Counted from the stretch's first letter, positions 10,724 to 37,702 are shown. The stretch: DNA of 57,515 nucleotides from Actinomycetota bacterium (GCA_013695465.1 JACDAL010000046.1:1-57515); one strand, 5' to 3'. Made by a program: numbers and translations. Notes: generated by a model from the letters alone, not told the origin.

Positions 10724-10781
10724 CAATCCTCGTGACTCAATTAGTGCGACTTGTGCCGCCCCGGCCCAGAAGCGGAGCATT

Positions 10782-11702
10782 CTACGAGGTGTCGGGCGCC
10801 TCCGGCTCGACATCCCACAGGAAGCGAGAGAAGATGTCGTCGCACAGAGGCTCGGGCGCAGGCTCGAACACCAGCCCGTTGGGGCGGTAGAACACCGGGG
10901 GCGGCTCGGCCTTGCCGATCTTCATCTCCCAGCCCCCTTCGTGAACGAGGTAGTGGTGATAGCCGCACAGAAGGCAGAGGTTGTCGAGATCGGTGGGCCC
11001 GCCCTTGGTCCAGTGCCAGACATGGTGTGACTGCAGATAGCGCTTGCGATTGCAGCCGGGGAAGACGCAGCCCTGGTCCCGGGCCCGCAGCTGGCGCACC
11101 AGCCACCGGCTCACCGAGCGAGACACCCGCCCCATCCCAATAGCTTCGCCGTCGTTGTCGTGGGCCACGATCTGGAGGCGACAGTCGCAGCACGAGCGCC
11201 TCAGCGCCTCGGAGGAGAGCGCAAAGCCCTCCTCGGTCAGAGCCGAGCCCTCGAGCGCCACTAGAGCCGAGGCATCGGCGTGGACCACCACTGTGGCCCG
11301 GTCCGCATCCGAGTCGGCCGCCAGCGCCTGTCCGCAACAGCTCGACCAGGGCGTCGGCGGCACGCTGTGGCAGCGGGTCCCAGGTCCCGCTGGGGTTGCG
11401 CCCGATGCCGTGGGCGCACCGCTCCAGGGCCTGTACCACCGTTGCCCCCTGGTCTGCCCTGAGGTGGCCCCACAGCCTGACGCTGTTCTTGCGCTCGTCC
11501 CAGGTCCACCGCAGCGAGCGCTGCTGGTGGGCTTTGTCGTCCTCTTCCCTGGTCACCGGCCGGTGCCTCCGCACCAGCGACTTCAGAGCATTGAGGTTGA
11601 GCGCCACCGCCTGCTCCAAGAGCTCCGACTCGTTGTCCGGGGTCGCGATCGGAAGCAGGGCGGTGAGCTTGTCGAAGCTGAGTCTTTTCTGGGCGAAAGC
11701 TA
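10782..11702 (-). pseudogene. DUF222/13E12-type HNH endonuclease, 5'-truncated and frameshifted
   Basis: Two minus-strand frames together make one protein. The upstream part (about 11702 to 11340) encodes AFAQKRLSFDKLTALL and then the ATPDNESELLEQAV region of a DUF222 domain. The downstream part (about 11350 to 10782) continues in another frame through ARDQGCVFPGCNR, SHHVWHW, GGPTDLDNLCLLC and YHHYLVH, a complete HNH nuclease motif. The frames cross near 11340-11350. A stop codon sits just before the AFAQKRLSF segment, and no start or N-terminal DUF222 sequence precedes it, so the gene is truncated as well as shifted. Intact members are about 400-500 residues and are often repeated in actinobacterial genomes. 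Confidence 0.85.
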
Positions 11703-19634: not shown

Positions 19635-19838
19635 GGCAGGGGCCCCTGCGGCCACATCGAAAACGGCACCTTGCCCGAGCAACGAGTGATCGTGACCTCG
19701 CTCAAGCATTTGCCGGAAGCGGCCGCAGAGGCCGCAGTCGAATCTCCGGTCACGATAGTGATCGGCGAAGTGGTGAGCTTGACGGACAGACTCCTGAGAG
19801 CGGATCACGACGGCCAGATTGTCGCCTCAACCTCGTGA
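19635..19838 (+). pseudogene. 3' remnant of cobA-like uroporphyrinogen-III C-methyltransferase (SUMT)
   Basis: The plus strand encodes HIENGTLPEQRVIVTSL and then SPVTIVIGEVVSLTDRLL before a TGA. This matches the C-terminal end of SUMT enzymes, where ENGT-PEQR binds SAM and the IVGEVVRLRDRL strand ends the fold. Just upstream, a different frame reads ALGLARAGAPAA, the usual preceding stretch, so a frameshift lies near 19655. Nothing of the N-terminal two thirds is present. SUMT makes precorrin-2 for sirohaem or cobalamin. The remnant overlaps the 3' end of the metF-like gene by about 12 bases. Confidence 0.6.
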
Positions 19839-20681
19839 GCGCGCCTCTCTGGTGATCTGCCTGCGCCAGGCCTCGGTCTGTTCGATCTCATTGAACGTGT
19901 AGATGTGTATCCCCGGTACATCGAGTGCCGGGTCCCCGAGACGAGGGGCCAACTTCTCCAGAAGGCGGGTCGGGTCGTATCCGCCGGGAACGACCAGGCG
20001 CAGCAAGCCGCCTCGGCTCTTGGTGAGAAAGCGGGCCGATTCCCCCACGCCGATCTTCTGTGACACCCGAAGCAGCTTCGCGGTGTCGGTGATGCTCGGT
20101 AGTCCGAGGTAGATGGGCAGCTCGACCCCCCGGCGCCGCACACGCTTGACCCACCGGACGATGACCTTGGCATCGAAGCAGATGTTGCTCACGATGTAGG
20201 TGCCGAATTGACGCTTGTCCCACATCGACTGAATCGTGACGTCGTCATCGATCAGCGGATGGCTCTCGGGGTAACCGGCTATGCCGACGTCGTCGAACGA
20301 GTGACCGCGTTCGTGCATAGCCTGAAGCAGCTCGAGGGAGCCCGAGAACTCCCCCTCCGGTCGAGCCTCATCTCCCGCAACAACGAACACCTCTTTGATA
20401 CCCGCGGCGCGTACCCTCTCGACAACTTCGTCGAGGTGTCGGCCGTCGGCTACGAGGCGCGCCGAGATATGTGGCACGGCCGAATAGCCATGTCGCGCCA
20501 GCCGCTCCGCCAGCTCCAGAGTCGGGTCGAGTCCTCTTCGGGGCGATGCCGTGACCGTGACTTTGATTTCCTTACCGACCGACTGGAGGACTCGCTCCTC
20601 GGCCCCCTCTAGCGGAATCACCTCGTAGCGCGCAAGGTCGAGCCACCTCTGAATGGTGTTGCGGCCCTCGGCAGAGGTCAT
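19827..20681 (-). CDS. Methylenetetrahydrofolate reductase (MetF-like) family protein
   Basis: 284 residues. KVTVTASPRRGLDPTLELAERLARHG, YSAVPHISARLVADGRHL and VFVVAGDEARPEGEF follow the MTHFR TIM-barrel order (family Glu/Thr region, PH-x-x-AR, and GG/AGD strand), and GTYIVSNICFDA stands where MTHFR usually has Q-F. MTHFR interconverts 5,10-methylene- and 5-methyl-THF with FAD and NAD(P)H. The sequence is clearly divergent from housekeeping MetF. It is the last gene of a glycine-betaine-type ABC transporter operon, 27 bp after the binding-protein gene, hinting at a role in one-carbon units released from methylated amines rather than methionine synthesis. Confidence 0.8.
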   Translation of the reverse strand: MTSAEGRNTIQRWLDLARYEVIPLEGAEERVLQSVGKEIKVTVTASPRRGLDPTLELAERLARHGYSAVPHISARLVADGRHLDEVVERVRAAGIKEVFVVAGDEARPEGEFSGSLELLQAMHERGHSFDDVGIAGYPESHPLIDDDVTIQSMWDKRQFGTYIVSNICFDAKVIVRWVKRVRRRGVELPIYLGLPSITDTAKLLRVSQKIGVGESARFLTKSRGGLLRLVVPGGYDPTRLLEKLAPRLGDPALDVPGIHIYTFNEIEQTEAWRRQITREARSRG

Positions 20682-20708: not shown

Positions 20709-21689
20709 CTAACTCGAGATTCCCTCCAGCCACGCATCGGCCTTGTCCTTGTTGTCGGAGATCCACTGTGCGGCGGCATCCTCGGGAGTCATCTTCTCCT
20801 CGGCGATGAGCTTCGACACCAGCTCTTGATCCGCGTTCGACCACTTGAAGTTCTCGACGAACTCAACAGCAGGCGAGCCCGACTCGGCGAACTCACTCGA
20901 GTAAAGCTTGCGAAGGTCGTAGTCGGGATAGGCGCAGTCGACGTTGTCCGGATCGGCGTCACAGCCCGGCGTCCGCTTGGGTAGCTTTACCTCTTCGAAG
21001 TCCAAAGCCGCGTTCAACCACTGCGGCTCGTACCAGTAGAAGAGCAGCGGCTCCTCTTGCGCGTAGGCCTGCTGGATCGCAGCGATCTCGGAGGCCTCGC
21101 CACCTGCGTAGATGACCTTGAAGTTGAGACCGAGTGTCTCTATCAGAGATTCGTCGTTCGTCACGTACCCGGGATCGCCCGCGAGAAACTGCCCCTGGTC
21201 ACCGGATTCGGGGGTCTGGAAGAGTTCCGAGTTCTCCGCTACGCCCTGCCACGAGGCAAGTTCGGGGTTCTCATCAACGAGGTACTTGGGCACATACCAG
21301 CCGATGTGACCCGTGACGCCTAGTGACCCCGCCTGCTTCACCTTGCCTAGGTCATCGACGTACTTCTTGTAGAGCTTGACGTGCTGCCAATCCTCCAGGA
21401 TCACGTCGACCTTCCCGTCCGCTAACGCTTCGTATACCGGGATCTCGGCGATCTTGGTTATCGAAACCGTGCACCCAAGCTCGTTCTCGAGCAGGTTCTT
21501 GGCCACGTAGACGTTAGCTGTGGAGCCGACCCAGGACTGTTCGTTGATAGTCAAGTCACCGCAGTCTCCGCCACCGCCACCACCGGCAGCACTACCGCCG
21601 CCATCGGAGCTCGGGCTTTGTTGGGCGCCGCAACCAGAAGCAACCAGCGCCAGCACGGCTCCAACCATCCACAGCCTGTTTCTCACCAC
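20709..21689 (-). CDS. Glycine betaine/proline-type ABC transporter substrate-binding lipoprotein
   Basis: 326 residues. A lipoprotein signal (MVRNRLWMVGAVLALVASGC) is followed by a Gly/Ser-rich linker. The OpuAC fold shows LTINEQSWVGSTANVYVAKNLLE, DVILEDWQH, GHIGWYVPKYL and FYWYEPQWL, with tryptophan/tyrosine residues where the aromatic cage for quaternary amines sits in ProX/OpuAC. It binds the ligand outside the membrane and passes it to the permease encoded 57 bp upstream in the same operon. The exact ligand (betaine, choline, carnitine, proline betaine) cannot be told. Confidence 0.9.
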   Translation of the reverse strand: MVRNRLWMVGAVLALVASGCGAQQSPSSDGGGSAAGGGGGGDCGDLTINEQSWVGSTANVYVAKNLLENELGCTVSITKIAEIPVYEALADGKVDVILEDWQHVKLYKKYVDDLGKVKQAGSLGVTGHIGWYVPKYLVDENPELASWQGVAENSELFQTPESGDQGQFLAGDPGYVTNDESLIETLGLNFKVIYAGGEASEIAAIQQAYAQEEPLLFYWYEPQWLNAALDFEEVKLPKRTPGCDADPDNVDCAYPDYDLRKLYSSEFAESGSPAVEFVENFKWSNADQELVSKLIAEEKMTPEDAAAQWISDNKDKADAWLEGISS

Positions 21690-21746
21690 TCCACCTCCAT
21701 CGCTTCCGAGTGCCCAGCGTTATCGCCGGGCGCCACCGCTCTGCTG

Positions 21747-23702
21747 CTAAATGCTTCGTCTCTGCAGGTTGCCTCTTGTAACCCTATCCAGAACGATCCC
21801 CAATGCAAGGATGGCGAGGCTGGCCACCGCCCCGTCTCCGAACTCGTTTCGCTGCAAGCCCACCACGACGCCGTAGCCAAGAGCACCTCCGCCCACAAGG
21901 CCCGCAACGATCACGACTGCCAGCACCATAATGATCCCCTGGTTGACCCCCAACATGATCGCCGGACGAGCGAGTGGAATCTTCACCTTGAGCAGTACCT
22001 CTGCGCGACTGGCCCCGAACGCCCTGGCAGCCTCGACCGCGGCCGGCGACACCTCCTTGATCCCGACCACGACCAGGCGGATGACCACCGGCGTCGCATA
22101 GAGGACAGAGGCGATCACTCCCGGGACCCGCCCGACACTGAACAGGGCCACGATTGGTATCAGATAGACGATCTGCGGGAGCGTCTGAAGAGCGTCTTGA
22201 ATGGGCCTGATGGTCTGCTCGAAACGAGGCGTCTCCGCCGCCACAATTCCCAGTGCCACCCCAAAGAAGAGAGTAAGCACGGTCGACACGAGTACCTGAG
22301 AGGCCGTGTCCATCCCCGGCCCCCATACGCCCATGACGCCGATTGCGGTCAGCAGCACGCCGGCGATGATCATCTGACGAACGCCGGAGACGATCAAAGC
22401 TATCGCAACGGCGGATCCGATCACCGCCCACCAGGGAGAGTCGCTCAGGAACACGCGCAGAGGCTCGAGACCCCACAAGACAAGATGATCCCCCAGCCAC
22501 GAAGTGACCGGATACACCGGCTTTGTTGGATCCTGCACCCAGGTGATGACGTCGTTGATGATGCCCGCAATGAAGTCACCGACGCCTACAGTGTCCGGAA
22601 AGGAGGCAATGCCGAAAGCCCTCGCTGCAAGCGCGAACGCCGCAATCGCGACGAACACGGCCGCTGTTAACGTCCTCGCCGAGAAACGAGGAGTGCGCAA
22701 GCCGCCCTCGGGATGGCGACTGGCGTCCATACGCGCGGCGGCGGCCTCGGTTGCACGGTCCAGAGCGATCGCCATAATGACTATGGCCGAGCTGGCCACG
22801 ATCGCCAGTCCCACATCAAGGAAACTCAGCGCCGAGATGACTGTGTCGCCGAGCCCACCTCCGCCGATGAGCGAGGCAATGATCACGATGGAAAGCGCCA
22901 TCATGATCGTTTGGTTCACTCCCAGCATGATGGATCTCAGCGCCAGAGGGAGCTGCACCCCGAATAGCACCTGCCGCCTGGTGGCGCCCAAAGACTCGGC
23001 CATCTCCACGGATTCTCGAGCAACACCTCGCACGCCGAGGGCGGTGATGCGAACGGCCGGCGGAACCGCATAGACGACGGTCGCGATGACGGCGGCAGGG
23101 TTTCCAACGGAAAAGAAGATCACCACCGGCATGAGGTAGGCGAAGGCAGGAACGATCTGCATAACATCGAGCACCGGAGTGATCGCCTTGTCGAAGCGGT
23201 CGCTGCGTCCGGCGAGCACCCCGGCCGGAATGCCAATGGCAAGGGACACCAACACTGCGGAAAGCATGAGCGCGAGCGTTTCCATGCTTTCCTCCCAGAC
23301 TCCCAGCACGCCGAAGGAGAGGAAGGAGCCGCATACGAGCAGAGCTACACGCCGGCCGCTCCAACGCAACGTGATGAGCGTGGCCGCGGCCGTGACGCCG
23401 ACCCAGGATAGCCACACCAGCACGCCATTGAGGTAGGCAACCAGTTGGTCGAGGAAGTTCGCGATGTGGTTGAAGAAATAGAGAAACAGCCAGTGAGAGT
23501 TCTGATTGTCGACAATCCACTCGTAGAGAGCGTCGAAGCGCTTGTTGAGTGGATAAATGAGACCCGAGGGCCAAGGGAACTTATTCTCGAGCAGGACGAA
23601 AAGGACGAGCAGAATCGCCAAGACGACGCCGACCTGCGCCGAGCGCCCGAGGTGTGGGAGGCGCGCTCTGATGGCGGGGCGGGCCGTCGTGACTGCAGAC
23701 AT
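21747..23702 (-). CDS. Tandem (fused) ProW/OpuAB-type ABC transporter permease
   Basis: 651 residues containing two complete binding-protein-dependent permease domains. The EAA-like loop appears twice: ESVEMAESLGATRRQVLFGVQLPLA with QTIMMALSIVIIASLIGGGGLG in the first half, and AAVEAARAFGASRAEVLLKVKIPLA with QGIIMVLAVVIVAGLVGGGALG in the second. Single-domain permeases of this family are about 280 residues, so this is an internal duplication and fusion. It starts 2 bp after the ATPase stop and probably forms the whole membrane channel as one chain. Confidence 0.93.
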   Translation of the reverse strand: MSAVTTARPAIRARLPHLGRSAQVGVVLAILLVLFVLLENKFPWPSGLIYPLNKRFDALYEWIVDNQNSHWLFLYFFNHIANFLDQLVAYLNGVLVWLSWVGVTAAATLITLRWSGRRVALLVCGSFLSFGVLGVWEESMETLALMLSAVLVSLAIGIPAGVLAGRSDRFDKAITPVLDVMQIVPAFAYLMPVVIFFSVGNPAAVIATVVYAVPPAVRITALGVRGVARESVEMAESLGATRRQVLFGVQLPLALRSIMLGVNQTIMMALSIVIIASLIGGGGLGDTVISALSFLDVGLAIVASSAIVIMAIALDRATEAAAARMDASRHPEGGLRTPRFSARTLTAAVFVAIAAFALAARAFGIASFPDTVGVGDFIAGIINDVITWVQDPTKPVYPVTSWLGDHLVLWGLEPLRVFLSDSPWWAVIGSAVAIALIVSGVRQMIIAGVLLTAIGVMGVWGPGMDTASQVLVSTVLTLFFGVALGIVAAETPRFEQTIRPIQDALQTLPQIVYLIPIVALFSVGRVPGVIASVLYATPVVIRLVVVGIKEVSPAAVEAARAFGASRAEVLLKVKIPLARPAIMLGVNQGIIMVLAVVIVAGLVGGGALGYGVVVGLQRNEFGDGAVASLAILALGIVLDRVTRGNLQRRSI

Positions 23703-23704
23703 GC

Positions 23705-24814
23705 CTAGGATCGGCCCCCGTCGGCGCGCAGCACAGCTACACGGTCGACCACACCGACCATGCGGTCGCCGTCCATGACCCGCACCGGCTTCGGGTTATC
23801 CGCAACCAGCGAGACGACATCGCGCACGACTTCGTCTACAGGCGCCGTCGGCCCCGAGAGGTCATCGCTGGCGGTGGCATCCCGCATGATCCAGCGAAGA
23901 GTTAGGACCTGGCTGCGAGGTACGTCCTGCACGAAATTACGGACGTAGTCATCGGCAGGCGAGCCGACGAGGTCCTCGGGGCTCCCCTGCTGCACGACCT
24001 CCCCGTCGCGCATGATCATGATGCGGTCGCCGAGCCGGAGTGCCTCGGACAGGTCGTGGGTGATGAACAACATGGTCTTGCCGGTCTCCTTCTGGAGCCG
24101 GATAACCTCGTTCTGCATGTCGCGGCGGATGAGTGGATCGAGAGCACTAAACGGCTCGTCGAAGATCATCACCTCGGGATCCACGGCAAACGCGCGGGCC
24201 AGACCCACTCGCTGCTGCATGCCTCCCGAGAGCTGATCGGGAAAATGGTTCTCGAACCCGTCGAGTCCCACGAGCTCGACCATCTTGCGAGCTCGATCCA
24301 AGCGCTGCTCCTTGGGCTTCTGCTGGATCTCGAGACCGAACCCGATGTTGTCGACCACCCTGCGGTGTGCCAACAAACCGAAGTGCTGAAAAACCATTGC
24401 CACGGTCCCGCGGCGCAACTGGCGAAGCCCGGCCGTGTCGGCGGCCATCACATCGTGCCCTGCGATGCGGATCTCGCCGGCGGTGGGCTCGATCAACCGG
24501 ATCAAGACGCGCGCCAGGGTGGACTTGCCGGAGCCCGACAGTCCCATGACCACGAAGACCTCGCCGGGCCACACCTCGAAGTCGACGTCCCGCACCGCGG
24601 CGATGCAGCCTGTGCGCTCGCGCAGCTCCGCTCGCGGAAGCGTGGCGGCCTCGGTCCCGATGATCTTTTCGGCCTCGGCCTGGGGACCGAAGATCTTCCA
24701 CACGCCTCGCGCCGAGATGACTGGGTCGCTTGCGCGCTCGGTGGGGGCCGCGCGGCGACCCTCATCCTGAACGACGCCGGCCTCGCTCACTCCCGGCCCT
24801 CCCCCGATAGCCAT
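23705..24814 (-). CDS. Glycine betaine/proline-type ABC transporter ATPase (ProV/OpuAA) with CBS domain
   Basis: About 369 residues from ATG 24814; a TTG two codons earlier is the only alternative. Walker A is GLSGSGKST, the signature [15 protein letters not shown], Walker [13 protein letters not shown] and the switch histidine [11 protein letters not shown]. The C-terminal 80 residues ([13 protein letters not shown] to [10 protein letters not shown]) look like a CBS domain, which in OpuA senses ionic strength. It is the first gene of the four-gene operon ATPase, permease, binding protein, MetF-like. Confidence 0.93.
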
Positions 24815-24871
24815 TCTCAATAACCGTAACCTGCGCCCGTCGCCGCCCCTGCCAACAAGGGCCGGAGGGGC

Positions 24872-25828
24872 TCACAGCAGGCTGTGCAGCTTGCGCGCCT
24901 TCAGCCGGTGCACGAGCATTAGAAAGAGCTCGGCCGTCGCCATGGCGTCGGACATCGCATGATGGCTGCGATGGGGAGGCAGCCCGAAGTGAGCCCGAGC
25001 CCCGGCCAACGCCACCGGTGGCCTCGGCTCGGAACCGGGCCGGCGCGCCAGGCGAGCCAAGAGCCTCATCGTGTCCACGACCTGAGGACGGGGCCACGGA
25101 AGCCCCTCGCCGGCGCAGGCCCGCCGCAGGAACGGCACATCAACCATGGCGCAGTGAACGAGCAGAACCCCTTCGCTCAAGCGGCCACAGATGAGGGGGA
25201 GGACATCCTGGAGGCGCGGCGCTGCCTCGAGGTCTCTTGGATTGAGATGGTGGATCGTCATGCTCTCTGCAGTCATCTCCTGGGCCGGATTGACGAGGGA
25301 GTAGAAGGACTCCCCCACTCGAATGCGCCCGGAGCGAATGGGCACCATCCCCACCGAGACGACACCGTGCCGGCGGGGGTCCAGTCCGCCGGTCTCCAGA
25401 TCGAGTGCCCAATACACCGGGTCGTCCCACCGCGATATGCGTCTCTTGATCCGCTTGCGTGAAGTGAGGCTCGTCGAAAGCTTGCCTACCTCCCCGCTGC
25501 CAGTTTTTGGACCCTTCGAAGAAGCACTCGGTTTAGCCTGGGGGCCGAGCACGTGCACCAGGGTGTCTTGTGCAACCAGGCAGGCGCCGGCTCTGTCCGA
25601 GAACCGCAGTACCTCCCCCGCTGCCCATGTTCGCAGCCCCGGTTGCTCCACCACGCCTGTGCGAATCAGGTAAAGGCGCCCATCGGCGCCCGGCTCGTGC
25701 AGCCAGGTTCCACGAGGCCAGTACCAAGTCTCAAGCGAGTCCTCGACCGCGGCAAGCTCCTCCAGGGTCAAACGGTCGAATGGCGGACGGCGCCGCAAGA
25801 ACTCGATGGGTTCCAGACCGGAGATCAC
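24872..25828 (-). CDS. DnaQ-type 3'-5' exonuclease with N-terminal cNMP-binding-like domain
   Basis: 318 residues in two parts. Residues 1-90 (FLRRRPPFDRLTLEELAAVED, then LYLIRTGVVEQPG and AAGEVLRF) resemble a shortened cyclic-nucleotide-binding beta-barrel. After a low-complexity linker, residues 135-310 are a DEDDh exonuclease: WALDLETGG (Exo I, D and E), LLVHCAMVDVPFL (Exo II) and SHHAMSDAMATAELFL (Exo III, H and D). In other bacteria such exonucleases sit next to DUF294 nucleotidyltransferases and solute symporters; here the DUF294 gene is on the far side of the divergent permease and shares the same type of N-terminal domain. The start is GTG 25828. Confidence 0.85.
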   Translation of the reverse strand: MISGLEPIEFLRRRPPFDRLTLEELAAVEDSLETWYWPRGTWLHEPGADGRLYLIRTGVVEQPGLRTWAAGEVLRFSDRAGACLVAQDTLVHVLGPQAKPSASSKGPKTGSGEVGKLSTSLTSRKRIKRRISRWDDPVYWALDLETGGLDPRRHGVVSVGMVPIRSGRIRVGESFYSLVNPAQEMTAESMTIHHLNPRDLEAAPRLQDVLPLICGRLSEGVLLVHCAMVDVPFLRRACAGEGLPWPRPQVVDTMRLLARLARRPGSEPRPPVALAGARAHFGLPPHRSHHAMSDAMATAELFLMLVHRLKARKLHSLL

Positions 25829-25918
25829 GCAGCATTAAGTCTATGCGGGACCGCCTTCGTTCGGCGATTTGAACCTTGCCCGGCCTGGTCCATTTGTGGT
25901 TTCCTACTCTGGCATGTC

Positions 25919-25943
25919 GTCGCTCCGATCAAAAGGGAGCGAC
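25919..25943 (+). promoter_or_regulatory. Leader hairpin just ahead of the APC permease ribosome site
   Basis: GTCGCTCC-gatcaaaag-GGAGCGAC is a perfect 8-bp stem with a 9-base loop, ending a few bases before the AGGAGG of the permease. It may control translation or mRNA stability, or be an operator in the divergent promoter region. Confidence 0.45.
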
Positions 25944-25959
25944 AGGGGGAGGAGGACAT

Positions 25960-27468
25960 ATGAGCATTGAGGGTCAAGAGCTCGACTACGCGGGGGGTGG
26001 GCTCGCCCGGGAAACAAACTGGTGGGGCGCCTTCGTCATCGGCCTGGCAGGAACAATCCTCGTCACGGGAATCGCTCCCGTAATGGTCACGGCATTGGGT
26101 GCGGCCTCGATCCCGATCATAGTCCTGGTTACGTTGAGCGGATGGCTCCTGTGCCTGCTGCTGGCCGAGCTTTCTGCGATGATGCCCGAGCGCACCGGAG
26201 GCTCACCCTCCTACGCCTACCCGGCTTACAAAGAGCGCTGGCCGGGCCTGGCGAAGCACATCAACGGCTTCACCGCGTGGGCCTACTGGCTGGGTTGGTT
26301 CCCAGTGGCTCCGCTGAACATGATCTTGGCGTCGTTCTATCTCGGTGATCGTTTCGGTCTGAACCTCGAGAGCGGGTTCACCCCCATCAACACGTTCATC
26401 TCGTGGTGGACGCTCGGTATTGCCCTCGTCGGCATACTTCTGTTCTTCATTCCCGCCTATCTCGGGATCCGCTTCGGGACCGTTTTTGCAACCGTTCTTG
26501 CCATACTCTCGATGATCCCGCTTACCTTCCTAGCGATAGCGTGGATTTTCAACCCCAGCACGGTGGACTTCGGCGAGCTGTCGGGATTCACCCAGCTCGA
26601 CGGCTCGAGCTTCTTTTCCGGAGTCGGCGGATACGGCTGGCTCACCATCTACCTCGCCTACTCCTTCCTTCTGACCTGGAACGTCATTGCCATGGAAGCG
26701 GCCGCCTGCTACATCGGCGAATGCAAGGACCCGGACCGGGACGCCAAGATCGCTCTGAACCTGGAAGGCGGGTACGGCCTCTTCGTCTACACGCTGATCC
26801 CCCTGGCGTTCGTAGTCGTGCTGGGCGCAGACGCGCTTTCGAATCCGGATCTCGTCGACCCCGCCACCATGTTCGTCACCTTCGCGGGGCAGGTGTTCGA
26901 GGGTGTGGGCGGCGAGTTTCTCAACTGGCTCATCGCATCCATGCTCATAATCGCACTGGCCCTCTCCGCGCTCAACGCGATCATGGGTTGCGCCCGATCA
27001 CTCCATCAGATGTCCATCGACGGCCAGTTCCCGCGCTTCTTCCAGAAGGTCAACCGCCATGGTGTTCCAGACCGAGCCATGCTCTTCAACGTCCTCGCCT
27101 CGCTCGTAGTGGTCTTCGCCGGAGGGGCGGTGGAGATCTATTCCTTCTCGAACGTGGGCTACACGATCTCAATGGTTCCGGTCCTCGTTGGTTACTACCT
27201 CCTGCGCACTCACCGGCCCGATGCCCGGCGGCCGTTCCGCCTCCCCGAGTACTTCAAGTACGTGGCTCTCGCACTCGCCGTCTTCTATTTCATCATCTGG
27301 CTTGTCGGAGGAATCTATTTCTCGATCATCGGAGGCACCCAGATCTACTACTTCCTGGGCTGGATAACGCTGCTCGCCTACTTGCCGCTCTATTACTACA
27401 GGACACGCGTCGAGGACGCCAAACTGGAGCCGGCGGCCTCTCCAGACGCGGCTCCTGCAACCGGTTGA
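25960..27468 (+). CDS. APC-superfamily amino acid/amine permease
   Basis: 502 residues from ATG 25960, which follows AGGAGGACAT; upstream in-frame codons are ignored because they lack both hydrophobic sequence and a ribosome site. There are about 12 membrane segments, starting WWGAFVIGLAGTILVTGIAP, with the TM1-type break GTILVTG and MPERTGGSPSYAYPAYKERWP after TM2, as in APC/APA transporters. WNVIAMEAAACYIGECKDPDRD is the TM6/loop region. It probably imports an amino acid or amine with protons or sodium. It is followed by a hairpin, then a Usp gene and a DUF294 gene on the same strand. Confidence 0.9.
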   Translation: MSIEGQELDYAGGGLARETNWWGAFVIGLAGTILVTGIAPVMVTALGAASIPIIVLVTLSGWLLCLLLAELSAMMPERTGGSPSYAYPAYKERWPGLAKHINGFTAWAYWLGWFPVAPLNMILASFYLGDRFGLNLESGFTPINTFISWWTLGIALVGILLFFIPAYLGIRFGTVFATVLAILSMIPLTFLAIAWIFNPSTVDFGELSGFTQLDGSSFFSGVGGYGWLTIYLAYSFLLTWNVIAMEAAACYIGECKDPDRDAKIALNLEGGYGLFVYTLIPLAFVVVLGADALSNPDLVDPATMFVTFAGQVFEGVGGEFLNWLIASMLIIALALSALNAIMGCARSLHQMSIDGQFPRFFQKVNRHGVPDRAMLFNVLASLVVVFAGGAVEIYSFSNVGYTISMVPVLVGYYLLRTHRPDARRPFRLPEYFKYVALALAVFYFIIWLVGGIYFSIIGGTQIYYFLGWITLLAYLPLYYYRTRVEDAKLEPAASPDAAPATG

Positions 27469-27473
27469 GCTTG

Positions 27474-27502
27474 GGCCCCGGCGGGACTTCCTCGCCGGGG
27501 CC
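27474..27502 (+). terminator. Strong GC hairpin between permease and usp
   Basis: GGCCCCGGCG and CGCCGGGGCC pair over 10 bp with a 9-base loop, starting 5 bases after the permease TGA. Only TTATC follows, not a T run, and the usp ATG is 9 bases beyond the stem. It could be a partial terminator that lowers usp/DUF294 expression relative to the permease, or it could stabilise the permease mRNA 3' end. Confidence 0.6.
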
Positions 27503-27510
27503 TTATCAAA

Positions 27511-28002
27511 ATGCCCCCGGAAGGCAATCTGCCCGATCCCTCGACTCTAAAGCTGCGCCGCCTACTACTGGCCTCCGAAGGCCGCCCCCTGACCAAGAGC
27601 GCCATTGATCTGGCCGCGCGCATCGCCAAGCCTCAGCGCGCATCCGTCCACGTCTTCTCGATAGCCCGAGTATGGGGAACGGGCCTGGGACTGCCGATGC
27701 CCGCGCTGTTGCCCACCAAGGCAGAGTGGGACGAGCAGCGCGAGATCGTCGAGCGCGCCGTCAAGGCGCTCCGCAAGCACGGCATCGATGCCTCCGGACA
27801 GGTTCTTGCCACGCGCAAGGCCACCAAACGGATCTTGAACGAGGCGCAGAGGACCAGATGCGAGGCGATCGTCATGGCGGCGGACCCTCCCCGGCCCCGT
27901 CTGCTCGCCGATCTGATGTGGTCTCAAGAGCCGTATCGGGTACGGCGAAGGTCGAAGCTTCCCGTCTACCTCGTCGATCGAGCGAAAAATGAACGTGGAT
28001 GA
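27511..28002 (+). CDS. Universal stress protein (UspA)-family protein
   Basis: 163 residues. LRRLLLASEGRPLTKSAIDLAARIA forms the first strand and helix of the Usp fold and CEAIVMAADPPRPRLLADLMW takes the place of the usual ATP loop (G-x2-G-x9-G-S). The canonical glycines are missing, so it may be a non-ATP-binding member. The C-terminal SKLPVYLVD strand is typical. The ATG is squeezed 9 bases behind the hairpin with no visible Shine-Dalgarno. Its last 14 bases overlap the DUF294 gene. Usp domains often accompany APC permeases and may regulate them. Confidence 0.8.
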   Translation: MPPEGNLPDPSTLKLRRLLLASEGRPLTKSAIDLAARIAKPQRASVHVFSIARVWGTGLGLPMPALLPTKAEWDEQREIVERAVKALRKHGIDASGQVLATRKATKRILNEAQRTRCEAIVMAADPPRPRLLADLMWSQEPYRVRRRSKLPVYLVDRAKNERG

Positions 28003-29803
28003 GATCGCGCGCTTTCTCGCTAGGTACCCGCCGTTCACCAGCCTGTCCAGAGACGAGCTCGAAGATGTCGCTTCAGTAGCCGCAATCCGTCCCTACGAGG
28101 ACGGTCAGGACGCTCTCGTCGAGGACGGCCGCCTCGCCACTCACTTCTTCGTTGTTCGAAGCGGCGCCATGGAGCTGGTTCACGTCGACGAGGTCATCGA
28201 TATTCTGGAGCCGGGAGAGGCGTTTGGTCATCCCTCTCTGCTCACCGGTATGGCTCCGGCCTTCACCGTTCGAGCCCACGGCGACGCGGTCTGCTATGCG
28301 ATCCCCAAGGAGCGAGCGCTGCGTTTGCTGGGAAATCCGGCCGGCACCACGTTCGTCGCCCGAACCCTGAGGGATCGCCTCGTTCGAACCGGACATACCG
28401 TCCACGCCCTGCCCGAGGTCCGGACGCTGCGCGTGGCATCCCTATTAAACCGCCCTCCCGTTTTCCTAGATGCCGAGGCAACCATTCGCGAAGCCGTGCA
28501 GGCCATGCGAGCCAGGGCTTCTCCGGCCGTCTTGATCCGAACGCGTGCGGGCCTGGGGATCGTCACGGATGCGGACTTGAGGGACAAGGTGTTGGGAGAG
28601 GAAGTCTCGCTGGACCGCCCCGTGGACTCGGTCATGACCACTCCGGTGGTCACCATCGACTCCGATCGCCTGGCGGTGGAGAGCGCAATCGAGATGCTTC
28701 AAGCCGGGATCCAGCATCTTCCGGTCCTCGCCCTCAGCGGAGAGATCCTTGGAGTGCTTTCTGCAGCCGACCTGATGAATCTCGAGAACCTCAGCCCGTT
28801 CGCGCTGCGCCGCTCGATCGCAAGCGCTTCGGATGAAGAGGGTCTCGTGGACGCCGCCTCACACTTGCCGCGAGTCTTCGTTGCCCTTCTCGATGCCGGG
28901 CTTCCCGCCACCGACGTCGGCCGAGTTCTCTCGCTGCAAAGTGACTCCGTTACCGAACGCCTTATCGACCTGACGATCGAGCGTCGCGGCCCCCCACCAG
29001 TGCAGTGGGCGTGGTTGGCGCTGGGCAGCGTAGCCCGGCGAGAGTTGACGCTGGCGTCCGATCAGGACAACGCGCTCGCTTACGAGGACTCGCAAGATCG
29101 TTCTGAGGTCGACTCGTACTTCAAGCAGTTCGCGGAGGACGTCACCTCGGGACTTGCTCGCTGCGGGTTTGGGGCGGACAAAGCCGAGGTCCTGGCACGC
29201 AACCACGAGTGGCGCATGTCGCGGTCGGAATGGCTCGCGGTCTTCGCTTCCTGCCTCGAGACGCCCGACCGTTCCCATCTGGTACGCGCGGCCGTGTCCT
29301 TCGATTTCCGTCATGTGACCGGCGGGCTGGACATAGTTCCGCCGCTCGTGGCTTCCATTCGCCGAGCGCCCGAGCACCCCGACTTCCTCGGGAGAGTGGC
29401 GCGCACCGCCACCGACATTCGGCCCCCTCTCGGTTTCCGGCGCCGGCTCATGGGCGAGTTCGACGTGAAAAAGGGGGGCGTGGTCCCGCTCGTCAACCTC
29501 GCTCGTTTCCATGCTCTCTCGCATGGAGTGACGATCTCGCCCACGCTGGACCGGCTGATCGCGGTCGAGGAGCTGGGGGCGCTCGGCACCGATACCGCGC
29601 GCGGGTTGAGAGAGGCTTTCGCGATCCTGTGCAAGGTTCGGCTGGAGCATCACGCGGCTCAGATAGAGGCAGGTCGCGCCCCCGACAACCTCATCGATCC
29701 CCTGGAGCTTCCACCTCTTGCGCGCATCGACGTACAGGAAGCTTTGAGAGCAATTATCGTTGCCCAGAAGATGCTCGGGCACTTCATGCGCCCAGGCATG
29801 TAA
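27989..29803 (+). CDS. cNMP-binding-like / CBS / DUF294 nucleotidyltransferase-like protein
   Basis: 604 residues. Order: cNMP-binding-like barrel (1-125: FLARYPPFTSLSRDELEDV, FFVVRSGAMELVHV, LEPGEAFGHPSLL), a CBS pair (about 145-275: ASPAVLIRTRAGLGIVTDADL, DSVMTTPVVTID, IQHLPVLALSGEILGVLSAADLM), then DUF294/DUF294_C. The nucleotidyltransferase motif is GSVARRELTLASDQDNAL with the aspartate pair, as in the GlnD-like fold, so it could uridylylate or adenylylate a partner. Such proteins are usually beside solute transporters. It overlaps usp and shares its N-terminal design with the divergent exonuclease. Confidence 0.9.
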   Translation: MNVDEIARFLARYPPFTSLSRDELEDVASVAAIRPYEDGQDALVEDGRLATHFFVVRSGAMELVHVDEVIDILEPGEAFGHPSLLTGMAPAFTVRAHGDAVCYAIPKERALRLLGNPAGTTFVARTLRDRLVRTGHTVHALPEVRTLRVASLLNRPPVFLDAEATIREAVQAMRARASPAVLIRTRAGLGIVTDADLRDKVLGEEVSLDRPVDSVMTTPVVTIDSDRLAVESAIEMLQAGIQHLPVLALSGEILGVLSAADLMNLENLSPFALRRSIASASDEEGLVDAASHLPRVFVALLDAGLPATDVGRVLSLQSDSVTERLIDLTIERRGPPPVQWAWLALGSVARRELTLASDQDNALAYEDSQDRSEVDSYFKQFAEDVTSGLARCGFGADKAEVLARNHEWRMSRSEWLAVFASCLETPDRSHLVRAAVSFDFRHVTGGLDIVPPLVASIRRAPEHPDFLGRVARTATDIRPPLGFRRRLMGEFDVKKGGVVPLVNLARFHALSHGVTISPTLDRLIAVEELGALGTDTARGLREAFAILCKVRLEHHAAQIEAGRAPDNLIDPLELPPLARIDVQEALRAIIVAQKMLGHFMRPGM

Positions 29804-29813
29804 AGCAGCGCAC

Positions 29814-30818
29814 TCACACCCGCGCTGACGACCCTCCCGGCGCGGAGTTAATCCTGACTCGCGGATCGATGCCGCAGTAAAGAAGATCTACCGCCAGGTT
29901 GGTAACGATGATCATCAGCGAGAAGAGCAGGACGACTCCCGCCATTACCGGAAAGTCGTAGAAGTCGCGCGCGTCGAGCAGCAGGCTGCCCAAACCTGGA
30001 ATGCGGAAGATGCGCTCGATGATTATGCTCCCGCCGGCCAGCAGACTCAGATCGAGCCCGTACATCGTCACGATTGGAGTCAGGCTGCCACGTAGCTCGT
30101 GTCTGATTACTGCCGAGCTCGACAGGCCCTTGGCTACCGATGTCCTGATGTAGTCCTCCGCCTTGACCTCCAGCACCTTGCTTCGAATCATGCGCGCGTA
30201 CACGGCGACCAACGGCAACGCAAGGCAGATCCACGGCAGCCACATCGCCTCCAGCCATTCCCAGGGGCTCTGGGAGAGGGACACGTAGCGGTTGCCCGCG
30301 TAGATCCCGGTTGTGTTGAGAATCGCAGCCAGAGTCATCAGTGCCACGAAGAAGACCGGCAGTGACAGCGCCGCTAGTGACAGCCCCATTAGGACGCGGT
30401 CGGTGGTGCTGCCGCGGCGGCTGGCCGAGACCGTACCGACCACAGCTCCTGCCAGGACCCACAGCACCGACGCTCCGAGCGCGATCGACAACGACGGCAC
30501 GAGGGCGGGAAGGACGACGCTGGACACCGGTGCGTTGGAGGCGAACGAGTAGCCCAGGTCGCCTCGCGCCAGGCTCGAGACGTAATGGAGGTATTGGACC
30601 AAGACCGGTCTATCGAGCTTTAGGCGCTGCTCGATGGCCCGCATCTCCGGTACCCGGGCCCCGCGACCTGCGAGCAGAACAGCGACCGGGCTGATCCCTC
30701 GAGGCTCCCGGCGCCCGCCTCCACCGGGAAGGACGAAGAAGATCACGAACACCACCGTGACCACGAGCACAAGCGTGATCGCCGCCCACAGCAACCTGGC
30801 GATGACGTAGGAAAGCAC
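29814..30818 (-). CDS. DppB/OppB-type ABC transporter permease, solitary
   Basis: 334 residues. The N-terminal MLSYVIARLLWAAITLVLVVTVVFVIFFVLPG helix is typical of DppB-type permeases, and the EAA loop reads EDYIRTSVAKGLSSSAVIRHELRGSLTPI, followed by GGSIIIERIFRIPGLGSLLLDA. About six membrane helices are present. No DppC, ATPase or binding protein is adjacent. It lies 33 bp downstream of the glutamine synthetase-like gene on the same strand, converging on DUF294. It may be assembled with subunits encoded elsewhere, or be an operon remnant. Confidence 0.88.
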   Translation of the reverse strand: MLSYVIARLLWAAITLVLVVTVVFVIFFVLPGGGGRREPRGISPVAVLLAGRGARVPEMRAIEQRLKLDRPVLVQYLHYVSSLARGDLGYSFASNAPVSSVVLPALVPSLSIALGASVLWVLAGAVVGTVSASRRGSTTDRVLMGLSLAALSLPVFFVALMTLAAILNTTGIYAGNRYVSLSQSPWEWLEAMWLPWICLALPLVAVYARMIRSKVLEVKAEDYIRTSVAKGLSSSAVIRHELRGSLTPIVTMYGLDLSLLAGGSIIIERIFRIPGLGSLLLDARDFYDFPVMAGVVLLFSLMIIVTNLAVDLLYCGIDPRVRINSAPGGSSARV

Positions 30819-30851: not shown

Positions 30852-32243
30852 TCAGAACCGGGTGAGGTACTCCCTCACCTCCCAGGGGGTGACCTGCTCG
30901 TGGTAGCGCCTCCATTCGCCTCGCTTGACGTCGGCGAAGTAGTCCACGTAGTCCTGGCGCAGGCCGTCGGTGTTGGCCACTGTGCCCAGCGACTCTCTCA
31001 GGGCCTCGTCCTTCTCGAGCTCACTCACCGCTTCGAGCAGGTTCGCCGGCAGCATCTCGACGCCGGCGCTTCTGAGATCCGCCTCCGAAGCCTCGTAGAG
31101 GTTGTCGGAGTTCGGATCCCCCGCATCCAGCTTGTTGTCGATCCCGTCCAGCCCGGCCCCCAGCACCGCAGTCGCGGCCAGGTAGGGGTTGCAGGAGCCG
31201 TCGATGGTCCTGTCTTCGATCCGGCCAGGGCCGGGTATTCTCAGCATCTGCGTCCGGTTGTTGTATCCGTAGGTGATGTAGACGGGAGACCAGGTCGCAC
31301 CGGATTGAGTCCACGACGATTCCTTGAGTCTCTTGTAAGAGTTGACCGTGGGCGCAGTCACTCCGATGTAGGCCTTGGCGTGCCTCTTTAGTCCGCCGAT
31401 GAACTGATAGGCGAGCTCCGAAAGCCCCAGTCCCTTCGGATCATCCTCGTCCAGAAACAGGTTCTGGTCCGTCTCGACGTCCCACAGGCTCATGTGGAAG
31501 TGGCAGCCGCTGCCGGTCAGATGCCCAAAGGGCTTGGGCATAAAGGTGGCAATCAAGTCTCGCTGCTGTGCCAAAGTCCCCACCATGTAGCGGAAGAAAA
31601 TGGCCCGATCGCAGCTCGTGAGCGCGTCGTCGTAGGTGAAGTTTTGCTCGAACTGAGAGTTGGCGTCCTCATGATCGTTGGCGTAGTTGCCCCATCCGAG
31701 CTCGTTGACGTAGCGCGAGACCGTGGACAGGAAGTCGTAGTTGCGAGTCAAGCCTTTGAGGTCGTAGCAGGGCTTCTCCAGAGTGTCCAGAGGATCGGCG
31801 ATCACGATCGATCCGTCACGCTTCTGGCGCACGAGGAAATACTCGAGCTCCAAGCCGATCTTGAAGACGTATCCCTTCGCAGCGGCGCGCTCCAGTTGGC
31901 GGCGGAGAATCGTGCGGGGATCGTAGGGCCACTCTTCCCCTTCGACGAAGATGTTGCAGGCAAAGCGCCCGAGGTCCTGCTGCCAGGGGACCGGAGTGAA
32001 GCTGTTCAGATCGGGACGGGCCATGAGGTCGGGCTGATGGGGGCCTTGGCCCATCTCCCCGGCGGCGAATCCGGCGAAACCGACTCCCTCCTCGACGAGC
32101 TCGTCCAGGTAGGTGGCGGGAACGAGCTTGGCGCTGGGACGAGCGTACATGTCGACGAACTGAGCGAAGTAGAAGTCGATGCCGCGCTTCTGAGACTCTG
32201 CGCGCACGTCGTCAACAGTCGGAGCAGGTGACCCCCCGGCCAT
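30852..32243 (-). CDS. Glutamine synthetase-family ligase, type III GlnT-like
   Basis: 463 residues from ATG 32243, preceded by GAGGGAGGG; the upstream in-frame start at 32294 lacks this. The catalytic domain has IGLELEYFLVRQ (metal glutamates), HEDANSQFEQNF, GSGCHFHMSLWD (metal-binding His), and NRTQMLRIPGPGRIEDR (phosphate and metal-binding Arg/Glu). The N-terminal half, with QGPHQPDLMARPD, resembles enzymes labelled type III glutamate-ammonia ligase or gamma-glutamylmethylamide/gamma-glutamylpolyamine synthetases rather than housekeeping GlnA. It ligates glutamate to ammonia or an amine; the acceptor is unknown. Confidence 0.88.
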   Translation of the reverse strand: MAGGSPAPTVDDVRAESQKRGIDFYFAQFVDMYARPSAKLVPATYLDELVEEGVGFAGFAAGEMGQGPHQPDLMARPDLNSFTPVPWQQDLGRFACNIFVEGEEWPYDPRTILRRQLERAAAKGYVFKIGLELEYFLVRQKRDGSIVIADPLDTLEKPCYDLKGLTRNYDFLSTVSRYVNELGWGNYANDHEDANSQFEQNFTYDDALTSCDRAIFFRYMVGTLAQQRDLIATFMPKPFGHLTGSGCHFHMSLWDVETDQNLFLDEDDPKGLGLSELAYQFIGGLKRHAKAYIGVTAPTVNSYKRLKESSWTQSGATWSPVYITYGYNNRTQMLRIPGPGRIEDRTIDGSCNPYLAATAVLGAGLDGIDNKLDAGDPNSDNLYEASEADLRSAGVEMLPANLLEAVSELEKDEALRESLGTVANTDGLRQDYVDYFADVKRGEWRRYHEQVTPWEVREYLTRF

Positions 32244-32287
32244 GAGACCCTCCCTCTCATCTGAGTTACTCGGACACCGGGACGATA

Positions 32288-32317
32288 ACCGCACGCCCGT
32301 TCGTTTTCCCGTGCGGT
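32288..32317. promoter_or_regulatory. Inverted repeat in the glnT-like/secreted-protein divergent region
   Basis: ACCGCACG and CGTGCGGT are a perfect 8-bp inverted repeat with a 14-bp spacer, centred about two helical turns apart, in the 140-bp gap between two divergent genes. The spacing suits a dimeric regulator on one DNA face. Which gene it controls is open. Confidence 0.45.
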
Positions 32318-36289: not shown

Positions 36290-36470
36290 GGGCCGGGATG
36301 AAGGCCACGAGTGGTTGCCCCTAGAGGGCCATGACGACACTGCTTCACCCGGCTCTTCCGAGGGCTCCAAAGACCGGCAACAGAGGGACGCGCCGTAGAG
36401 CGCCAGTCAGTGACCGCCCGGGACGGAGTCCTCCTCGCCGATGCAAGGTCGTATTCGCGAGGAAGGGGGG
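36290..36470 (+). ncRNA. Candidate IS110 bridge RNA region
   Basis: In IS110-group elements the non-coding left end is transcribed into a bridge RNA with two loops, pairing one with target and one with donor DNA. The roughly 180 bp before this transposase are non-coding and rich in short stems: GGCC-gggatgaa-GGCC (about 36293-36310), GCCC-ctaga-GGGC (about 36317-36330) and GCGC-cgtaga-GCGC (about 36390-36405). Length, position and structure fit; I could not fold it or match loops to flanks. Confidence 0.45.
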
Positions 36471-36475
36471 CATGT

Positions 36476-37702
36476 GTGTTCGTAGGCATTGACTGGGCCT
36501 CAGAGGAGCACGAGGTGTTCGTGTCCAAGGACGACGGTGGAAGAGCAGATGGATTCCGCTTCGCCCACACCCAGCAGGGCTTCGATGAGCTGGTGCGGCG
36601 CCTTGGTCGCCATGGGGAGCCCGCTGATGTGCCGGTCGCCATCGAGCGCCCAGATGGGCGCCTGGTCGACCGACTGCTCGAGGCGGGCCATCCGGTGTTC
36701 CCCGTAAAGACCAACGCCATCAAGGCGTGGCGGGAGTCAGAGGTGGTCTCCGGAGCCAAGAGCGACGCCGGCGATGCCGAGGTAATTGCCGACTATCTGC
36801 GGATCCGCAGGCACCGTTTGCGCGCTCTCGACCCCTTCAGCGACGCCACCAAGGCGCTACGGGCGGTAGTGCGTGCTCGCACCGATCTGGTCGAGCAACG
36901 GGTCGCGGCTGCAAACCAACTCACGGCCACCCTCGATGCCTTCTGGCCCGGAGCCAAGGCGATGTTCTCGGATATCACCTGCAACATCGCGCTTACGTTC
37001 TTGGAGACCTATCCCACGCCGGCAGCGGCCGCGCCACTGGGGGAGGGGCGGATGGCCGCATTTCTCAAGAAGCACGGCTACACGGGCCAACGCAGCGCAA
37101 CCGAGCTCGTGGAACGCTTGCGGGCTGCTCCCGCCGGTGTCATCGCCGGGAACACGGCCTCGGCCCAAGGCGACGTGGTGCTCGCAATGGTGCGAGTGAT
37201 CCGGGCCCTCAACCAATCGATCAAGGACCTCGATCGCTCCCTTAATGCCCGCCTCGACGAACACCCGGACGCCGCCATCTTCACTTCCCTGCCACGGTCG
37301 GGTCGGATCAACGCAGCCCAGATGCTCGCCGAGTGGGGTGATTCCCGGCAAGCCTATGACTCTCCCGGCGCCATCGCCGCGCTCTCAGGAGCAGCGCCGG
37401 TCACAAAGAGATCTGGAAAGCACCACGTGGTTAGCTTCCGTTGGGCGTGCAACAAGCGCCTCAGAAACGCGTTCGCGACCTTCGCCGACAACTCCCGCCA
37501 TGCGAGCCCGTGGGCCGCCGACGTCTACGCCCGGGCCCGAGCCCGTGGCCACGACCATCCCCACGCGATCCGAATCCTCGCCCGCGCCTGGATCCGGATC
37601 ATCTGGCGCTGCTGGATCGATCAGGTTCCTTACGACCCGACTCGGCACGGCGCAGCCCGTGCTTTCGCCGAGCGCGACCTGGCAACCGGGGCTGCCGCTT
37701 GA
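36476..37702 (+). CDS. IS110-family transposase (RuvC-like DEDD N-terminus, Tnp20 C-terminus)
   Basis: 408 residues from GTG 36476, which follows GGAAGGGGGG; an earlier in-frame start (36410) lacks a site and would add non-conserved residues. The N-terminal DEDD domain shows FVGIDWASEEHEV (first D), VAIERPDG (E) and GAKSDAGDAEVIADYLR (last two D). A helical middle leads to the Tnp20 domain with IFTSLPRSGRINAAQMLAEWG, LSGAAPVTKRSGKHHVVSFRWACNK and ARAWIRIIWRCW. The serine expected for catalysis in Tnp20 would be in the SGK or FRWACN region. The gene is full length and undamaged, so the element may be active. Confidence 0.93.
   Translation: MFVGIDWASEEHEVFVSKDDGGRADGFRFAHTQQGFDELVRRLGRHGEPADVPVAIERPDGRLVDRLLEAGHPVFPVKTNAIKAWRESEVVSGAKSDAGDAEVIADYLRIRRHRLRALDPFSDATKALRAVVRARTDLVEQRVAAANQLTATLDAFWPGAKAMFSDITCNIALTFLETYPTPAAAAPLGEGRMAAFLKKHGYTGQRSATELVERLRAAPAGVIAGNTASAQGDVVLAMVRVIRALNQSIKDLDRSLNARLDEHPDAAIFTSLPRSGRINAAQMLAEWGDSRQAYDSPGAIAALSGAAPVTKRSGKHHVVSFRWACNKRLRNAFATFADNSRHASPWAADVYARARARGHDHPHAIRILARAWIRIIWRCWIDQVPYDPTRHGAARAFAERDLATGAAA

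Follow-up and report, generated by a model that had tools for sequence, protein, structure and literature searches.

The window analysed here, a 57,515-nucleotide stretch of DNA from an Actinomycetota bacterium, carries a locus that we read as a variant DUF294-exonuclease control module placed on a methylated-amine uptake operon, in which a reduced cNMP-binding-like domain (cNBD) on the exonuclease would act in docking or regulation, and the nuclease would tune the transport genes. We put the probability of this reading, taken as a whole, at about one half.

Organization of the locus

The gene at 24872..25828 (minus strand, GTG start) encodes a DEDDh 3'-5' exonuclease of 318 residues, identified from its RNase_T match, its place in a tree and structure models. 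The protein has three parts, which are a reduced cNMP-binding-like domain (residues 1-95; codons 1-95 at 25544..25828, minus strand, recognized by a DUF294 profile match and a model), a linker (residues 96-133) and the catalytic domain (residues 134-318). Across a divergent intergenic region of 131 bp (25829..25959), in which no sigma-70-like promoter was found, the plus strand encodes an APC permease (25960..27468; Pfam AA_permease_2, 1.8e-42), a universal stress protein (Usp) subtype (27511..28002; PF00582, 2.4e-8, and synteny), and a putative nucleotidyltransferase with the Pfam architecture cNBD-CBS-CBS-DUF294-DUF294_C (27989..29803). The DUF294 gene overlaps the Usp gene by 14 bp, and the permease, Usp and DUF294 genes probably form one operon. 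The positions of all four genes agree with those in the preliminary description.

The neighboring genes on the minus strand include a type III GlnA, probably a gamma-glutamylmethylamide synthetase (GmaS; 30852..32294), and a glycine betaine/TMAO-type ABC transporter (20709..24820) recognized by PDB matches and gene order, with its binding protein at 20709-21689, permease at 21747-23702 and ATPase at 23705-24820. A methylenetetrahydrofolate reductase-like protein (19827..20681, minus strand; TIGR00676 1e-18, under that model's cut-off) is possibly part of a C1 island. Between the DUF294 and GmaS genes lies a lone DppB-type ABC permease gene (29814-30818; BPD_transp_1) without adjoining partner subunits. 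By inspection, the gene at 36410-37702 resembles an IS110-family transposase gene, and 10741-11619 is probably a degenerate 13E12/HNH-type gene that is seemingly frameshifted.

The exonuclease N-terminus is related to DUF294 cNBDs

The preliminary description proposed that the exonuclease and the DUF294 protein begin with the same kind of domain, on the basis of short motifs. These motifs (FLxRxPPF, EL and IRxGxxE) do align, but after the GE turn the exonuclease is deleted by approximately 10 residues. The Pfam cNMP_binding model (PF00027) matches the locus DUF294 protein (3e-12) but not the exonuclease N-terminus up to E 1; the NCBIfam models also fail to see the exonuclease domain. Profiles of DUF294 N-termini, built from other genomes with the locus's own DUF294 left out, are more sensitive to it. 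A profile of all 45 N-termini matches exonuclease residues 9-61 with an E-value of 2.8e-9, and that of a more distant DUF294 group gives 1.7e-10, while the profile of the group closest to the locus DUF294 reaches only 4.4e-5; in a shuffle control, the best of 2,000 shuffled sequences scored E 0.2 to 4. In pairwise comparisons, the exonuclease N-terminus scores 49 (local score; z 5) against the locus DUF294, as compared with 94-100 (z 14-17) against its four best partners, all of which are DUF294 proteins of family f9 genomes. Judged by these profile and pairwise scores, which lie far above the shuffles, the exonuclease N-terminus is truly homologous to the DUF294 cNBD, and the shared domain of the preliminary description is therefore upheld, yet the likeness does not stem from a recent copy of the neighbor. 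A recent duplication of the neighbor's cNBD is ruled out because other DUF294 cNBDs are much closer. The most likely origin of the domain is a deletion within an ancestral operon of cNBD-CBS-DUF294 and exonuclease, which would explain why the domain is closest to the exonuclease-associated DUF294 group.

A structure model from exonuclease rows alone has pLDDT values mostly >90 over the catalytic domain and ~50 over the N-terminus, whose predicted elements are two helices followed by six strands. When 11 DUF294 N-termini are added, the first 100 residues are modeled with pLDDT values of about 70-93, and the N-terminus then matches cNBD structures (E 3.4e-7, TM about 0.55-0.6), a match that presupposes the homology. 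The model of the whole exonuclease resembles DnaQ, DinG and RNase T exonucleases. In the N-terminal region the helices that follow the beta-roll are missing, and the linker is disordered. No solved DUF294 domain was present among the PDB sequence matches.

We found no second cNBD-exonuclease fusion in several hundred genomes searched with the full-length exonuclease, which comprised class-level and family-level relatives, genomes related to G223 or to G446, those carrying 20 related loci, and 397 of the phylum; the sole match over the N-terminal residues was a DUF294 protein of G043. In a plasmid collection, the matches listed for the full-length exonuclease cover the catalytic domain only, and the N-terminus gave no match.

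The ligand pocket

The phosphate-binding cassette of the locus DUF294 protein is GEAFGHPSLLTGMAPAFTVRA, in which a His occupies the position of the ribose-binding Glu (after FG), and Ala/Pro that of the phosphate-binding Arg. The exonuclease counterpart, GEVLRFSDRAGACLVAQDTLVHVL, is ~10 residues short, and most of the cassette is gone. Among the sampled DUF294 cassettes, the Glu is present in 2 of 41 and an Arg lies near the right place in 6 of 41, five of these being in acetate-type loci. The cNBDs of family f38 DUF294 proteins share the gap of the exonuclease copy; more broadly, the N-terminal cNBDs of f38 and f44 DUF294 proteins (L087, L088, L089, L062, L067) also have no phosphate-binding cassette. 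Because pocket residues are missing from both proteins of the locus, canonical cyclic-nucleotide binding appears unlikely for either N-terminus, although a ligand other than a canonical cyclic nucleotide might still be accommodated. The term "nucleotide-responsive", which the preliminary description used for the locus, is thus not supported by domains that have not kept the canonical cassette.

The catalytic domain belongs to a clade of DUF294 partners

Pfam places RNase_T at exonuclease residues 141-302 (4.7e-20). The active site is intact (D143, E145, D230, H289 and D294), and its alignment columns are either invariant or D/E. Of 26 aligned exonucleases (the locus's own row included), 17 have Glu in place of the ExoII Asp (residue 230), which is kept here; Glu is unusual at this position for DEDDh enzymes.

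In a tree of 78 catalytic-domain rows, the domain falls inside a clade of DUF294-adjacent exonucleases with support 99/94 (inner node 100/98), which consists of 31 paired exonucleases, five unpaired ones, and the locus's own row. Its sister is an f11 row, from ActP-like symporter loci, but the exact sister is uncertain because some members are unpaired and the f11 branch is long. This clade membership means that the exonuclease and the DUF294 enzyme, which had been described as otherwise unrelated, are not so. Outside the permease-linked subtype, an exonuclease lies directly beside DUF294 on the same strand in approximately 33 of 41 DUF294 loci (counted from the locus list, with duplicates from one genome dropped), at a spacing of mostly 20-150 bp. 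The exonuclease studied here is instead divergent, beyond the permease and Usp, rather than directly downstream of DUF294. The usual partner exonuclease has ~15-60 residues ahead of its catalytic domain, whereas this one has 133, of which ~95 are cNBD-like. A gammaproteobacterial locus (L125:10341-12503) encodes exonuclease-CBS-DUF294 as one protein, adjoining the same permease and Usp, and in several genomes, genes for DUF294-type exonucleases lie apart from DUF294.

The permease-Usp-DUF294 set in other genomes

Related permeases occur in 70 loci, with orthologues up to 79% identical, and in the closest loci Usp is mostly the next gene after the permease. The same DUF294 subtype stands beside the same permease in 18 other loci (L072 and L148 among them), often divergently, and these orthologues are 45-58% identical to the locus DUF294. 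Several of the permease-DUF294 loci carry N-methylglutamate synthase/dehydrogenase genes (named from their sequences by inspection), and other permease loci have the order permease-Usp-GmaS. The set therefore recurs beyond this genome, and such conserved neighborhoods support the regulatory grouping around a transporter that the preliminary description envisaged. In none of the 18 other loci is an exonuclease of this type directly beside the permease-linked DUF294, so the exonuclease is dispensable for the permease operon. All of the parts do come together elsewhere, however: at L157/L218 (G461), a DUF294-exonuclease pair shares one locus with GmaS, permease and Usp, and L148 combines the permease and GmaS with two DUF294 genes, of which one has an exonuclease, so that their association is not unique to this genome. 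In a separate locus (L074:8030-11511), an APC permease gene and a DUF294-exonuclease pair are divergent, near PuuD-like, GlnA-like and aldehyde dehydrogenase genes, which suggests polyamine use.

A methylated-amine context

The nearest named model for the permease is that of a TMAO permease (NF053774; 2.4e-48, 165 bits, under the cut-off of 690). The GlnA-type gene passes TIGR03105 (588.7 bits as compared with a cut-off of 469.6), and the best PDB matches of this GmaS candidate are 7cql and 9qur ("glutamate--methylamine ligase"). The ABC binding protein has its best solved relatives in 4xz6, which we take to be the TMAO-binding TmoX, and 7yle. MgsC-like and Mgd-like genes are present on other contigs of the same genome. 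The proximity of GmaS and a TmoX-like ABC transporter points to TMAO/methylamine uptake; TMAO or a methylated amine is the most likely permease substrate, and the locus as a whole would serve the use of such compounds, a role that the preliminary description did not see.

The permease and the DUF294 protein are absent from all 23 class relatives searched. In tetranucleotide profile, the window comes closer to the genome's other contigs (0.93-0.94) than to related loci from elsewhere (at most 0.89). Bin contamination is less likely, since the composition fits its own genome, and, in view of the absence from class relatives, horizontal gain of the locus is the likely origin.

Proposed mechanism and alternatives

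In the module that we favor, the DUF294 protein would use its CBS and cNBD-like domains to sense the metabolic state, and would probably modify a partner by its putative nucleotidyl transfer. The divergent exonuclease would be the usual DUF294 partner enzyme, with its own reduced cNBD, which is probably a docking or regulatory module rather than a cyclic-nucleotide receptor, and would tune transport-gene expression by degrading RNA (or ssDNA), of which RNA is our presumption. A more specific form of this scheme treats the cNBD-exonuclease as a new architecture, in which a degenerate partner sensor docks onto, or competes with, the DUF294 protein, and controlled decay of RNA determines how strongly the transporter is expressed; we regard it as doubtful. 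What stands against the module is that the searches brought up no orthologue of the fused exonuclease that would show selection on the fusion, that the 18 permease-linked DUF294 relatives have no such exonuclease next to them, and that the N-terminal fold is modeled with low confidence (pLDDT ~50) unless DUF294 rows are included. For this reading, the main rival is that the N-terminus is a functionless, decaying remnant of the start of a DUF294 gene, fused by deletion to an exonuclease that is an ordinary partner or itself declining. The single occurrence, the lost pocket, the missing helices and disordered linker, and the same gap in the f38 cNBDs all agree with a remnant; even so we consider it somewhat unlikely, given that the signature residues of the beta-roll are well kept to residue 61 and that codon-position GC over the N-terminal codons (0.74/0.49/0.75) still follows the pattern seen in the catalytic part (0.74/0.49/0.80).

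The remaining alternatives concern how the exonuclease relates to its neighbors. A single nucleotide (cAMP, c-di-AMP or AMP) might be the ligand of both N-termini and would jointly control the exonuclease, the nucleotidyltransferase and thereby the transporter. Homology of both to cNBDs is in line with this, as are the CBS domains of the DUF294 proteins, since CBS domains in other families often bind adenine nucleotides, but the substituted Glu and Arg positions of the DUF294 cassette and the loss of most of the exonuclease cassette make it very unlikely. Equally far from our preference, and if anything still harder to credit, is an exonuclease that is adjacent to the permease operon by chance and is a general DNA/RNA repair or decay enzyme: the 18 permease-linked loci without an adjoining exonuclease and the exonucleases encoded away from DUF294 would fit, but membership in the DUF294-partner clade and the second locus that holds permease, Usp, DUF294 and exonuclease together argue against it.

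Comparison with known systems

DUF294-exonuclease pairs adjoin symporters or permeases in many bacteria, and a genetic study in Pseudomonas gives the exonuclease a nutrient phenotype. The PP_0354/PP_0353 pair of Pseudomonas putida is an operon under MxtR/ErdR (CrbS/R) control, and in Pseudomonas the pair shares its control with actP and acs. Growth on pyruvate was slower once the exonuclease PP_0353 had been deleted, as it was after deletion of actP-I, and mRNA decay is one route that the authors consider possible (PMC9927547). For the DUF294 protein of such a pair, nucleotidylation is the predicted mode of action (PMC5715377). Compared by description, the pair belongs to the same two families (a cAMP-binding/CBS/nucleotidyltransferase and an RNase_T exonuclease) and is likewise tied to carbon-source use and to a transporter, which in P. 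aeruginosa is actP (PMC9927547, PMC5715377). It differs in being one operon with an SSS acetate symporter and an exonuclease described without a sensor domain, whereas here the arrangement is divergent, with an APC permease and Usp, and the exonuclease has its own cNBD.

Closer at hand are same-phylum pairs beside ActP-like SSS symporters (families f11 and f20; L216, L219, L085, L086, L090). The f11 exonuclease domains are the nearest relatives of the locus exonuclease (44-49% identical), but the f11/f20 exonucleases have no cNBD, and SSS symporter and AMP-binding (acs-like) ligase genes stand in place of the amine set. The Thermoleophilia and alphaproteobacterial permease-Usp-DUF294 sets beside N-methylglutamate pathway genes (L122, L123, L126, L146, L147, L153) resemble the other half of the locus, with permeases 64-79% and DUF294 proteins 45-58% identical and a conserved Usp; in these, DUF294 is often the divergent gene and there is no exonuclease, while here the exonuclease takes the divergent place. 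A DUF294/dnaQ operon of Bacilli linked to nitrogen-metabolism genes (PMC3412718, footnote) has, by its description, the same two genes and a nitrogen-related gene. With an APC permease and Usp connecting one DUF294 subtype to the use of methylated amines, the module would serve a broader range of transporters and nutrients. That a natural fusion has joined a sensor domain to the nuclease suggests joint action of the exonuclease and the DUF294 protein, and offers a handle for testing it. The kind of module is already known, and the exonuclease with its own reduced cNBD is a real but modest variation on it.
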